DNA from: a virus
IMG/VR virus record: IMGVR_UViG_3300044956_000680
Coordinates: 1-28,587 of that record
DNA length: 28,587 nucleotides
Direction: 5' to 3' (one strand)
The translations under genes and the position numbers were made by a program. Positions 7,300 through 22,275 of the stretch are shown here, piece by piece (the first letter of the stretch is position 1; every line of letters begins with the position of its first letter). The notes under the pieces were generated by a model. It searched no databases. It saw only the letters and a list, made by a program, of their open reading frames with translations, and was not told where the DNA came from.

Positions 7300-7386
7300 A
7301 TGATAACTACAACTCCATGTCATGGCTTTTTGAATCACGCCAAATCACAGAACTACCCGAAGAATGTGCTGGATTTGTTTATTTGA
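7300..7386 (+). other. Short out-of-frame ORF carrying the Shine-Dalgarno of the GIY-YIG gene
   Basis: AAAGGA (7288-7293) is ideally spaced for the ATG at 7300, which opens a 28-codon frame (MITTTPCHGFLNHA...) ending at 7386. The GIY-YIG ATG lies 17 bases downstream in another frame, without its own Shine-Dalgarno. The ORF may only load ribosomes, or be chance. Confidence 0.3.
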
Positions 7387-7757
7387 TCACTAATAAACAG
7401 ACTGGCAGGATGTACATTGGCAAAAAACTGGCAAAGTTCAAGAAAACAACTTACAAAGTAGTCAAACTCAAAAACGGCAAAAAGAAACGCCGAAAAATAC
7501 GTGGCACTATAGATTCGGATTGGCAAACATATTACGGTAGTTCTCCAGAGTTATCTCGAGATGTTGAACTGCTAGGCACAGAAAACTTCTTACGCGAAAT
7601 CTTATACTACTGTAGTACCAAGGCTGAATGTAGTTACATAGAAGCTCGCGAACAATTCTCTAGACGTGTGTTGGAATCAGACGATTACTACAATGGACAC
7701 ATACAAGTCCGTGTACATGGAAGTCATATTAAGGGAAAAATAAACAGTGAGAGATAA
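7317..7757 (+). CDS. GIY-YIG nuclease
   Basis: A small DNA endonuclease of the GIY-YIG superfamily. The diagnostic strands are GFVYLITNK (residues 19-27) and MYIGKK (32-37). A basic loop (KKKRRKIRG) follows, then DWQTYYGSS, FLREILYYC and the metal-binding Glu109 in SYIEAREQF. At 146 residues it is little more than the catalytic domain; no DNA-binding tail like that of I-TevI is seen, so target specificity is unknown. It could be a homing-type or a repair-type nuclease. It lies next to the structured RNA region at ~7890-8320, and a homing link can be proposed but is not shown. Translation may depend on the Shine-Dalgarno 24 bases upstream through the short ORF at 7300. Confidence 0.82.
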   Translation: MSWLFESRQITELPEECAGFVYLITNKQTGRMYIGKKLAKFKKTTYKVVKLKNGKKKRRKIRGTIDSDWQTYYGSSPELSRDVELLGTENFLREILYYCSTKAECSYIEAREQFSRRVLESDDYYNGHIQVRVHGSHIKGKINSER

Positions 7758-7881
7758 AGTAGTTTTTGCCGGATGTTCATACACTGCAGGTAATGGGTGG
7801 ATGGACGCCAACCCTGGAATCAATACTAACCAACTATTTGCAACACAGATAAAAAATTTCTTTGACAAAAATACTTTTTAG
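7747..7881 (+). pseudogene. N-terminal stub of an SGNH/GDSL-hydrolase-like phage protein
   Basis: GTG 7747 opens a 44-codon frame overlapping the end of the GIY-YIG gene. It reads MRDKVVFAGCSYTAGNGWM..., matching the first strand and nucleophile turn of phage SGNH-like proteins (FAGCSYTAG, where GDSxTxG is the classical form; Cys replaces Asp before the Ser). It stops at TAG 7879 after IKNFFDKNTF. The other SGNH blocks (the Gly, Asn and DxxH motifs) do not occur downstream. Either the gene was cut off when the following non-coding segment arrived, or this is a real 44-residue peptide. Confidence 0.5.
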
Positions 7882-7891
7882 GTAATAGAAG
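7862..7891 (+). promoter_or_regulatory. Possible sigma70-type promoter for the RNA region
   Basis: A perfect TTGACA (7862-7867) is followed 18 bases later by TAGAAG (7886-7891; 4 of 6 matches to TATAAT). It would start transcription near 7898, at the edge of the stem-loop-rich segment. The -10 is weak, so this is tentative. Confidence 0.3.
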
Positions 7892-8320
7892 GCTCGCACA
7901 GGCCGATATCGTGTGCTCACGACAAGGGGTTTAAATACGCCCGGACGGAAGTCTCATCGTACCAATGAGCACTCAATCAGTATCCTTAACAGGACCACGA
8001 TCGCAAAACCTGCGGTTTGATTGTTTGAACAGAGTGACTAAAGGGAAAAAGACGTGCTAGTGATAGCACACGGTTTGTATGTATGTTAGCGTATAGATAC
8101 AAGCCCGCCGTTGTATAAAGACACAACTCGAGGTACCGGACAACCGCCTCTGTAATGTTGTAACGCTAAGTGACTGAGTCGACTCGGATGATGACACTTC
8201 TTTGCCCTGCGCGGGCAAAGTGTGACCAAACAATCTGGATGATAACTGTTATCTCGCTTCGCTCGACTTAATAGTATTCATGAGCGCAAGCGAAATGAAT
8301 AGAACTGCGTAGCAGTTCTC
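7890..8320 (+). ncRNA. Candidate large structured RNA, family unknown
   Basis: About 430 bases with no credible reading frame on either strand but many strong stem-loops. (a) 7913-7919 pairs with 7966-7972 (GUGCUCA/UGAGCAC) and encloses 7943-7954, whose loop is GGAA. (b) 7983-7994 UCCU/AGGA. (c) 8006-8018 AAACC/GGUUU. (d) 8054-8069, 6 bp with a GUGA loop. (e) 8072-8105, 9 bp plus an inner 5 bp with a UUAG loop and a 2-base bulge. (f) 8110-8127 GUUGU/ACAAC, with a second ACAAC (8140-8144) and GUUGU (8157-8161) allowing a pseudoknot with GAGG/CCUC (8130-8150). (g) 8174-8187. (h) 8200-8220, a perfect 8 bp. (i) 8241-8253. (j) 8275-8301. (k) 8301-8319. The GGAA and GUGA loops are GNRA only when read on the plus strand, which sets the orientation. 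I do not recognise a known family. Group I and II intron cores, RNase P and tmRNA signatures were not found. Confidence 0.6.
8275..8319. terminator. Hairpin pair between convergent operons, possible bidirectional terminator
   Basis: TATTCAT/ATGAATA (8275-8281 with 8295-8301) is followed by AGAACTGC/GCAGTTCT (8301-8308 with 8312-8319, loop GTA), just before the stop of the minus-strand gene at 8330. There is no long U-tract on either side, so termination efficiency is doubtful. The hairpins may instead be the 3' end of the structured RNA. Confidence 0.35.
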
Positions 8321-8329
8321 AAAAGAGCT

Positions 8330-8668
8330 TTATGATTTAATGTTATCTGGCCAATCACGAAATAGTGCGTGTTGTATATTGCCAGCAACAAACTGATTAA
8401 ATGACTTATGTTTCTCTTCGAGTTCTCCTTGTTGAGGAACAACTCTCTGGAATGCACTTTCTATTTGCCCCATGTCATTGAACTCCATGAGTATCATCCA
8501 CTCTGGCATGTCAGCTATGCTACGGAATCCCATTTTGCAACGTGTGATTCTGTATGATACCATTTTGTCTTCAGCCACTAAGTGATCAAAGAACTTCTTC
8601 ATGTTATTGACCCAGTCTATGTCGCTGATGTCTCCCTCTTTGTCTGCCCAGATTGTGTAAATGTCCAT
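8330..8668 (-). CDS. Small DUF6614-like protein
   Basis: 112 residues beginning MDIYTIWADKEGDISDIDWV, with an internal RITRCKMGFRSIADMPEWMI strand pair and a C-terminal HALFRDWPDN. This resembles a family of ~110-residue alpha/beta (ferredoxin-like) bacterial proteins known as DUF6614, which share the R-L/I-TR-x-K-x-GF pattern and the final FRDFP/WPD motif. The function of that family is unknown to me. The ATG at 8668 lies 3 bases after the amidinotransferase stop with AAGG upstream, so the two are co-translated. It is the last gene of the minus-strand operon. Confidence 0.6.
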   Translation of the reverse strand: MDIYTIWADKEGDISDIDWVNNMKKFFDHLVAEDKMVSYRITRCKMGFRSIADMPEWMILMEFNDMGQIESAFQRVVPQQGELEEKHKSFNQFVAGNIQHALFRDWPDNIKS

Positions 8669-20264: not shown

Positions 20265-21332
20265 ATGCAAGATCTGCATTGGCGCTATAATTTCAATACC
20301 GGCAAGTTTGACTTTGTTGAAAACAATCCTCAACAGCATTATGAACCGTTGCTCAAGCATGTTCATAGGCCCACATTAGTCATTGACATAAATCTAATAT
20401 CAGCTGAAGACATTGAATCCTATGCTACCGAAGTTTTAGATAGAGCGTCGGCTAGCATGGTAAAGTTCAATCAGGTCATCTTTGACGGCACACAAGATCC
20501 TGTGAATGATTACACAGAAAAAGTTAAAGTATTGGATGAGTTTTCTCGAACCAAGGGATTGAAATCATATCTTGGTTTGAGTCAGTTTACTTTACAATCA
20601 CATAAGCATATTCAAGAAATAAACTATCCTAGCTGGTTATTTGTTTTTAAAAAGCAACAGTTACCAAAAGCTAACTTTGGTTCAAGACAACATGTTTTCA
20701 GTTGTCTTAATAGGAATCCAACATTTCACAGACTGATATTATACACTTTGATCAAGCGGGCAGGATTGCTAGATCATTTTGTTTACACTTTTTACGATCG
20801 CTGTCCCTATCAGGGATTTAAAATGACACCGCATCACTATCGCAATGTCAATAAGTTTGTTAATCAAGAGCTGTACAGTCAGTGTTTAGAAAGCCTAGCT
20901 GATTTTCCATTGGCTTGGTCTGGTGAACAACAAGGAGTTAATGATCATAGTATCAATCATCCTGCCTATCAGGATACATGGTGTAACATTGTTACAGAAA
21001 CATCAGCAGTAGTTAGCTTTACCAGTGAAAAAATTTGGAAGCCTATTGCGGCAGGGCAGCTATTTTTAATAGCAGGAGCTCCGGGCACAGCTTCTTGGTT
21101 ACAGAAACTGGGATTCTACACATTTGATGACAGCTATGATTTTGAGTATAAAATACAGAGTCGATTGGAAATGATCGTTGATCGTGTGCTTGAGCATGCT
21201 GAAAATCCCGAAGCTTGGTGGAAAGCCAATCGGTTCCAAATAGAACACAACTATCACTGGTTCCATTCGGGTAATGTTGAAAAAAGCATACTAGATCCTT
21301 TGGTATCCCAGCTTAATGGCGAAACTTCATAA
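20265..21332 (+). CDS. Putative glycosyltransferase (GT-B, fucosyltransferase/exostosin-like C-terminus)
   Basis: 355 residues. The C-terminal half has TETSAVVSFTSEKIWKPIAA (ending at ~260) followed by GQLFLIAGAPGTASWLQKLG and FYTFDDSYDF. This pattern (E/SEKIWKPI...G.P.i..G......L...GF.TF) is the nucleotide-sugar-binding half of several GT-B enzymes such as GT10-type fucosyltransferases. The N-terminal half is unfamiliar. Donor and acceptor are unknown. The gene follows the major capsid gene and has its own late promoter, so modification of a virion protein is a reasonable guess; host surface sugar modification is the alternative. Confidence 0.6.
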   Translation: MQDLHWRYNFNTGKFDFVENNPQQHYEPLLKHVHRPTLVIDINLISAEDIESYATEVLDRASASMVKFNQVIFDGTQDPVNDYTEKVKVLDEFSRTKGLKSYLGLSQFTLQSHKHIQEINYPSWLFVFKKQQLPKANFGSRQHVFSCLNRNPTFHRLILYTLIKRAGLLDHFVYTFYDRCPYQGFKMTPHHYRNVNKFVNQELYSQCLESLADFPLAWSGEQQGVNDHSINHPAYQDTWCNIVTETSAVVSFTSEKIWKPIAAGQLFLIAGAPGTASWLQKLGFYTFDDSYDFEYKIQSRLEMIVDRVLEHAENPEAWWKANRFQIEHNYHWFHSGNVEKSILDPLVSQLNGETS

Positions 21333-21335: not shown

Positions 21336-21344
21336 CTATTACAC

Positions 21345-21398
21345 AACGCAATAATGCGTTTTATGCAGGACACCACCTGCGTAGCGGCTAGAACCCGC
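21345..21398 (+). promoter_or_regulatory. Three tandem stem-loops in the 5' leader of the virion protein gene
   Basis: AACGCA/TGCGTT (21345-21360), ATGCAGG/CCTGCGT (21363-21382, one G-U pair) and GCGG/CCGC (21384-21398) follow one another and leave the AAAGGAG ribosome site free. They may stabilise the mRNA of a highly made protein or regulate translation. Confidence 0.5.
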
Positions 21399-21426
21399 AT
21401 TGGACTTCTTTAAAGGAGAAAACAAA

Positions 21427-22275
21427 ATGGGACGTCCTCTCAAAATACAAAAATATGGCCCTGCGCAGGGTATTACTTATCCAAATAACACATCAGCCAA
21501 TGTACCAGCAGCCGCTGTTCCTATTGATCAAGGTTATCCACAGTTCAGTCAGTTGACAAATCCTGTGTACTATTCTTCACTGACTGCCGACAACTTCTAC
21601 GGCGTAGTAGGTGGCACAAGAAGCACAGCAACTACAGCAACTTTTCCAGTGATCAAAGTTTTAGTGAACATTGCACTGCCAGACGGTACTGGTCAAGGTC
21701 AAAATGTTGGTTATATCATACGTCAAAAAGGCGCACACAAATATCTGGTAGGCAGCCTTGACCTTGTTCAAGATGAAGACATAGTAGTTGGTGCAGCCTA
21801 TCGCATTAACAATCTAGATACCACAAACTGGCAACAGATGGGTGCTCCAGCAGGTGCTATAGTTGGCACAATCTTTACTTGTACAGCTCTTTGCGCCAAC
21901 CCACAGAACGGTAATGCCAACCTTGTTGGACAATGTGTTCTTACCAGCGACCTAACACTAAGCAATCCTGGTACTATGAGCATCAGCTACGCAGTTGGCG
22001 GCGACTCTACAGAAGTTGCTGTTTCCAAGTTGACCAACAAGTTCTTGCAAGGTTGGGCAGGATTTACCAACGCCGCGGGCACATCTCTAACAACATACGA
22101 TTCAGGCGGCAACAACGCAGGTGAAGTTGATTATTCAGGCGAAACTACTTTCTTGTCCAACTTCTTCACAGACGAAGCAGACGCCGAAGCTACAAAGTCT
22201 GGTGCTGATGCTCAAACATTCAGCAACGGCACAGGCGATATTGAGTTGGCACAAGTTGAGAAGTGGACTTCATAA
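21427..22275 (+). CDS. Virion structural protein of unknown position
   Basis: 282 residues, starting MGRPLKIQKYGPAQGITYPN and rich in Gly, Asn, Thr and Ala, with beta-strand-like alternation (YIIRQKGAHKYLVGSLDLVQ). Proteins with the MGRPLKI start are common in marine T4-like phages as uncharacterised structural proteins. The ATG at 21427 has AAAGGAG at ideal distance; a TTG at 21400 in frame has none. The strong late promoter, structured leader and strong downstream terminator point to an abundant protein such as a decoration or neck component, but the position in the virion is inferred only. Confidence 0.6.
   Translation: MGRPLKIQKYGPAQGITYPNNTSANVPAAAVPIDQGYPQFSQLTNPVYYSSLTADNFYGVVGGTRSTATTATFPVIKVLVNIALPDGTGQGQNVGYIIRQKGAHKYLVGSLDLVQDEDIVVGAAYRINNLDTTNWQQMGAPAGAIVGTIFTCTALCANPQNGNANLVGQCVLTSDLTLSNPGTMSISYAVGGDSTEVAVSKLTNKFLQGWAGFTNAAGTSLTTYDSGGNNAGEVDYSGETTFLSNFFTDEADAEATKSGADAQTFSNGTGDIELAQVEKWTS

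Follow-up and report, generated by a model that had tools for sequence, protein, structure and literature searches.

Positions 7880 to 8320 of the window, the 28,587-nucleotide stretch of viral DNA analysed here, encode a structured RNA of a kind found in a large set of uncultured phages. It is probably the product of a stand-alone, trans-acting, modular large noncoding RNA gene belonging to giant freshwater T4-like phages. That the RNA is independent, and not a cis-element of a neighboring message, is likely. The source DNA is a 28.6-kb piece of an uncultured phage that encodes a T4-type portal and major head protein; judged by its head genes, the phage is closest, among cultured ones, to giant T4-like phages (XbC2, Kaldavass, Phosso, PA5oct, Atu_ph07, and 121Q, for example). 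The family name and the habitat hint at Polynucleobacter or Limnohabitans as possible hosts. Only the first third of the RNA was known before, as Polynucleobacter-1, and the remaining two thirds, the pseudoknots, the swappable front half, and the endonuclease neighbor are new. A short, poorly explained Rfam entry thus becomes a complete RNA ca. three times longer, with a defined fold.

The region had been described, from the sequence alone, as an unassigned stretch; however, positions 7891-8026 (+), 136 nt, match Polynucleobacter-1 (RF01718) over model positions 1-141, with a cmscan score of 87.5 bits against a cut-off of 37. The sequence-only reading thus missed that the first 136 nt belong to a catalogued orphan family, and also that a GIY-YIG endonuclease gene, here called SegE, abuts the RNA. 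The other ~300 nt of the RNA have no Rfam match. GOLLD, ROOL, HEARO, and the known introns gave no Rfam match at any E-value up to 5, in agreement with the earlier failure to recognize either GOLLD or ROOL. Conservation spans ~7880 to 8320 in more than 200 phage contigs, so that the 7882-8329 first proposed was nearly, but not exactly, the extent of the RNA; the ends are taken from the limits of conservation, with the 5' end placed to within 10 nt on either side. A degenerate pattern made from the Rfam match retrieved at least 119 loci from IMG/VR, and a second pattern, made from 8132-8155, retrieved at least 120, mostly new, both counts being lower bounds because exact degenerate patterns were used on the collections. 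Every 3'-domain locus with enough upstream sequence also carries a recognizable, often diverged, 5' part. Thus, the whole RNA is a single unit.

The sole description of Polynucleobacter-1 comes from a 2010 survey, which listed it in Burkholderiales and rated it "probably" an RNA and "probably" cis-regulatory (PMC2864571). Its bacterial occurrence was not reproduced here: in bacterial genomes, the patterns gave 22 hits, none of which was confirmed by a 3'-core model and none of the 18 scanned by Rfam, an absence that holds at the sensitivity of exact patterns. There was no model match in 369 Gammaproteobacteria genomes, and no match when two members of the family were compared, as nucleotides, with cultured phages and plasmids. 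Rfam likewise revealed no RNA in six phages related to that of the window or in six that encode SegE homologues. The pairing of SegE with the RNA is restricted to an uncultured freshwater phage group; the SegE homologues of cultured phages lack the RNA.

To assess covariation, we redistributed the observed substitutions along the tree (an in-house version of the R-scape approach, run with 40-60 replicates, and not R-scape itself). Against this null, 154 sequences yielded 41 significantly covarying column pairs across the whole RNA, 32 of them Watson-Crick/wobble. We also drew a structure by hand, with 18 helices and 102 pairs, and counted it on 70 diverse sequences: 84.1% of cells are paired, versus 70.1% after shuffling (equaled in 0 of 500 shuffles) and 36-45% with slid partners, and 83 pairs have changes on both sides, with 972 two-sided cells versus 318 when shuffled. 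Because this structure was drawn partly from overlapping data, the tree-based test is the more independent of the two. Well-paired columns hold 295 G-U but 26 A-C cells, which identifies the + strand as the RNA strand. Folding energy is less informative: 7882-8329 folds better than shuffled sequence on the + strand, albeit modestly (z -2.5, with 1 of 100 shuffles as good), and the - strand folds no worse (z -3.45). Energy alone therefore proves little, and the proof lies in covariation and the G-U excess, which together uphold the earlier proposal of a large structured RNA.

Four helices, those starting at 7881, 7891, 8086, and 8110, form pseudoknots (Table 1), the first of them lying partly outside the Rfam model. 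The three hairpins singled out at the outset (8054-8069, 8072-8105, and 8200-8220) are real and are kept as helices in homologues. Duplicate GUUGU and ACAAC elements had been suggested to allow alternative pairing or a pseudoknot; the pseudoknot exists, with 8110-8114/8140-8144 crossing 8123-8127/8157-8161, whereas the alternative cross-pairings are not kept. A proposed 7-bp pairing of 7913-7919 with 7966-7972 did not survive comparison: the strands are complementary here, but the pairing is kept in 67% of homologue cells, versus 99% and 94% for the helices it would displace. A further loop-loop pairing, 8009-8011 with 8042-8044, is suggestive from the sequence comparison. The loop of the 7980-7996 hairpin is replaced by GNRA or UUCG in relatives. 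Within its stem, columns 7983 and 7995 show a non-Watson-Crick covariation (U/C versus C/U), in which an A-U pair and an A.C pair swap.

Table 1. Features of the RNA and its locus, in window coordinates (x, crossing).
Feature	Position	Strand	Evidence or remark
SegE-like GIY-YIG endonuclease gene	7317-7757	+	PF19835 SegE_GIY-YIG, 112 bits; constant upstream neighbor
Putative remnant of an SGNH-like cargo gene, 44 codons	7747-7881	+	Intact homologues in the slot in L299, L301, L304
Whole structured RNA, ~440 nt	7880-8320	+	Conserved in 68-154 non-redundant phage loci; strand from G-U excess
Pseudoknot, GGUA with loop UACC	7881-7884/7960-7963	+	4/5 pairs with two-sided changes; column pair 7884/7961
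H-type pseudoknot	7891-7916 (7891-7894/7901-7904 x 7896-7900/7912-7916)	+	Hand-drawn helices and covariation
Hairpin P2	7926-7928/7940-7942 in window sequence	+	Column pair 7925/7941 covaries
Hairpin P3	7951-7970 (7953-7957/7965-7969 and 7951/7970)	+	Loop occupied by pseudoknot
P4	7974-8023 (7974-7978/8019-8023)	+	Encloses hairpins 7980-7996 and 7999-8004/8012-8017
Possible extra pseudoknot	8009-8011/8042-8044	+	Match of at least 3 nt in 62/89 vs ~49 in shuffles
Hairpin P6, GUGA loop	8054-8069	+	Column pair 8055/8068 covaries
Long hairpin P7	8072-8105	+	Two-sided changes in all 10 pairs
Pseudoknot of P7 loop	8086-8091/8164-8169	+	94% paired, 6/6 pairs covary
Pseudoknot core	8110-8114/8140-8144 x 8123-8127/8157-8161 and 8130-8133/8147-8150	+	99, 92, 99% paired
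Direct repeat R1 (ACTCGGATGATG)	8182-8193	+	Shared hexamer
Hairpin P11, between R1 and R2	8200-8220	+	Hand-drawn helix 15
Direct repeat R2 (ATCTGGATGATA)	8233-8244	+	Shared hexamer; covariation
Hairpin P13, inner GCAA-capped stem	8275-8301	+	Hand-drawn helices 16-17, by eye, and type-II columns; alignment poor there
3'-terminal hairpin P14, no U-run	8302-8318	+	Hand-drawn helix 18 and covariation
Convergent DUF6614 gene, bounds locus	8330-8668	-	PF20319; neighbor also at many type-I/type-II loci

The same genomic slot can hold a different RNA. Eighteen SegE loci match the 3'-core model over the 24-nt core only; there, the slot is occupied by an RNA (type II, the form in the window being type I) whose 5' domain is unrelated and has no Rfam match, but whose 3' part has the same GGTACCGG...ACCGCC core, R1/R2, P11, P13, and P14. 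Scanning identified at least 120 type-II loci (including L312, L317, L303, L275, L299, L287, and L352-L471), with SegE upstream and DUF6614 or other type-I neighbors downstream. Among 81 non-redundant type-II RNAs we found 21 covarying pairs, 12 of them Watson-Crick/wobble, and the type-II RNA is a new RNA family in its own right. A third form, at ~3150-3720 in L322/L324, follows SegE and a small ORF; its R1 equals its R2 (ACATGA), and the L324 copy has no Rfam match at E<=1. Long contigs carry type I or type II, never both: all 11 type-II contigs examined lack RF01718, and of 19 type-I/SegE contigs, 18 have no type-II core; the remaining one, G018, is type II without RF01718. The occurrence of three types with the same 3' module at the same locus indicates that the 3' module is shared and the 5' domain exchangeable. 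Moreover, since a sister RNA, absent from Rfam, occupies the same slot, these large phage RNAs make up a family whose front halves can be swapped.

The shared 3' module contains two direct repeats that evolve in concert. The R1 and R2 hexamers are identical within each RNA (170 of 170 type-I and 80 of 80 type-II RNAs, 250 of 250 in all) and differ between phages, with eight variants in all. For columns 8186/8237, the tree requires 29 changes per repeat, and all 29 fall on the same branches with the same change; 8190/8241 and 8192/8243 are concerted in the same manner. The letters beside the repeats remain different (CTC versus TCT), an observation that speaks against simple gene conversion. 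We found no third RNA column that tracks R1/R2, and a helix joining the segments just ahead of the two repeats was set aside, with one or two positions doing better than shuffling. As for coupling with the protein, no SegE residue tracks the repeats convincingly: one C-terminal SegE column follows 8190 beyond the tree null, and the other repeat positions are at or near it. A box C/D assignment of R1 (sR12, E=2.8) was rejected because the box letters vary freely. It would be something of a long shot that identity is maintained by parallel like-with-like base pairing, or by a shared partner with ever-changing specificity. If the shared-partner reading is true, the RNA would confer specificity on an RNA-protein machine, perhaps one that includes the GIY-YIG endonuclease, that distinguishes self from rival phages at the exchangeable locus. 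The concerted repeats are a covariation pattern beyond ordinary base pairing that is directly testable by mutation.

SegE lies immediately 5' of the RNA, on the same strand, in 175 of the 195 loci that have an upstream ORF; the median gap is a few bases, and SegE often overlaps the 5' end of the RNA. In the converse test, the GGTACCGG core was found downstream in 73 of the best 80 loci fetched by SegE alone, and an independent model also finds the core. The other seven comprise two that are short or cut inside the RNA, two with the third form, L310, L315, and L325; in L310, the 5' domain is present further downstream of SegE. L325/G012 encodes a SegE 70% identical to that of the window but set among different genes, and its 164-kb contig gave no RNA match. 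In some loci, SegE and the RNA are separated by a cargo gene of ~1 kb that resembles an SGNH hydrolase, a methyltransferase, or a sulfotransferase, and the ORF at 7747-7881 is plausibly the decaying leftover of such a gene, judging from the relatives in which it is whole. Conversely, the RNA occurs without SegE: in L005, L089, and L095 a PDDEXK_15 nuclease is directly upstream instead, and one 327-kb phage contig, G006, has four RF01718 RNAs (L338-L341) away from SegE. The G006 copies have a different 3' part without R1/R2, and thus may be a different RNA. The existence of RNA copies without SegE indicates that the enzyme is not needed by the RNA.

This tight linkage suggests one alternative, in which the RNA is a 3'-UTR element of the SegE message, with a role in protecting, terminating, or regulating that upstream mRNA and no existence apart from it. 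Consistent with this idea, no promoter is seen between SegE and the RNA, and a search for a late promoter of the RNA itself found none; since the RNA has no promoter of its own that we could find, it could simply belong to the SegE transcript as its 3' UTR. P14, which lacks a U-run, and the examined cultured phages, which lack the RNA, also count against a stand-alone RNA. However, the RNA is bigger and more knotted than a terminator or stabilizer requires, the missing U-run argues against a terminator as well, and the RNA is retained without SegE, beside a PDDEXK nuclease, or after a cargo gene. We therefore regard a 3'-UTR element as unlikely.

A second possibility is a ribonucleoprotein made of SegE and the RNA, in which R1/R2 would serve as twin binding sites or guide-like elements, as in IscB/omega-RNA and TnpB/reRNA. 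The linkage to SegE is tight in both type I and type II, the identity of R1 and R2 would suit a dimeric partner, and the SegE column that tracks 8190 points in the same direction. Nevertheless, R1/R2-bearing RNAs also lie beside PDDEXK nucleases, both the L325/G012 SegE and the cultured-phage homologues lack the RNA, coupling is at or near the null at the remaining repeat positions, and a variable segment of guide length is not seen. HEARO/omega-RNA and TnpB reRNA are likewise structured RNAs encoded beside a nuclease ORF, but neither matches here; the nuclease is of the GIY-YIG type, the RNA comes after the ORF, no guide segment is seen, and, in the case of HEARO/omega-RNA, the linkage differs in not being obligate here. 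Because some loci have SegE or the RNA alone, a shared particle is possible but disfavored, and we consider it improbable. On balance, we lean towards an endonuclease that exploits the locus over one that acts with the RNA.

The published rating of Polynucleobacter-1 corresponds to a third alternative, a cis-regulatory leader or riboswitch for the downstream gene. In 101 of 184 loci, the gene that follows the RNA is encoded on the other strand, as is the convergent gene in the window, and the downstream genes are mutually unrelated. When the next gene is on the same strand, a late-promoter-like nATAAATA, the form that precedes structural genes in the window, stands between it and the RNA in 64 of 81 cases, versus 0 of 97 when it is on the opposite strand. 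Since the following gene either runs the other way or comes with a separate late-promoter-like site, the RNA is not its leader, and a cis-regulatory role is very improbable. Although the full-model match and the freshwater origin agree with Polynucleobacter-1, the Rfam model covers one third of the RNA and none of the present pseudoknots, and the RNA, in most of the phages examined, is not a leader and has no conserved gene after it. The cis-regulatory position, a guess of 2010 and not a defining property of the family, is absent from the phages examined, and for these the presumed role is corrected. It is hardly credible that the RNA is a self-splicing intron, or another ribozyme mobile element, that relies on SegE for homing: a homing-type endonuclease beside a knotted RNA is the usual intron picture, but no Rfam intron core model matches, no host gene is interrupted, SegE lies outside the folded body, and the genes on either side are intact, often convergent, and do not represent two parts of a single gene.

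The RNA resembles other large phage RNAs in several respects. GOLLD has a constant 3' region and a less conserved 5' region, and ROOL, also phage-borne, is large, ornate, and pseudoknotted, and is not known to have a protein partner (PMC12286853). Like GOLLD, the present RNA is large, multi-pseudoknotted, and phage-borne, with a conserved 3' and an exchangeable 5' part; unlike GOLLD, whose model it does not match, it is about half the size, is not linked to tRNA genes (found nearby in 1 of 56 loci), and lies beside a GIY-YIG endonuclease. It shares large size, ornate form, and pseudoknots with ROOL, but is shorter, is not tRNA-linked, and has no match to that model either. It contains no ORF of 60 or more amino acids on the + strand.

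These features suggest how the locus may work. The RNA would be transcribed in the same direction as the upstream SegE-like gene, probably jointly with it, and would end at P14. It folds into a compact body with at least four pseudoknots and combines two parts, a 5' domain that can be exchanged (Polynucleobacter-1 in the window) and the common 3' module with R1/R2. Free-standing Seg homing endonucleases of T4-like phages sit beside conserved loci that they cut. The neighbor here is of the same kind (PF19835), but it adjoins an RNA gene, in a combination limited to the uncultured freshwater group. Different 5' domains replace one another at one genomic slot, and, by analogy with the Seg enzymes, the adjacent endonuclease plausibly drives this exchange by cutting rival versions. 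The RNA itself would act in trans, most likely as a structural or RNP scaffold during infection, a role also proposed for GOLLD and ROOL; assembly into an RNA-only oligomer, also argued by analogy, is conceivable but rather doubtful. Alongside GOLLD and ROOL, the locus thus offers another, independent system for studying the function of such RNAs and the generality of oligomer formation.

Two other RNAs were observed along the way. The only tRNA gene near the RNA is a tRNA-Pyl-like (CUA) gene, possibly a suppressor tRNA, ca. 100 nt before it in L216 (12170-12246). Elsewhere in the window, positions 21344-21429 (+) match the Rfam freshwater-2 RNA (RF02980, 76 bits) right after an nATAAATA at 21328; this RNA overlaps the start of the ORF at 21400-22275 and is probably the leader of that late gene.
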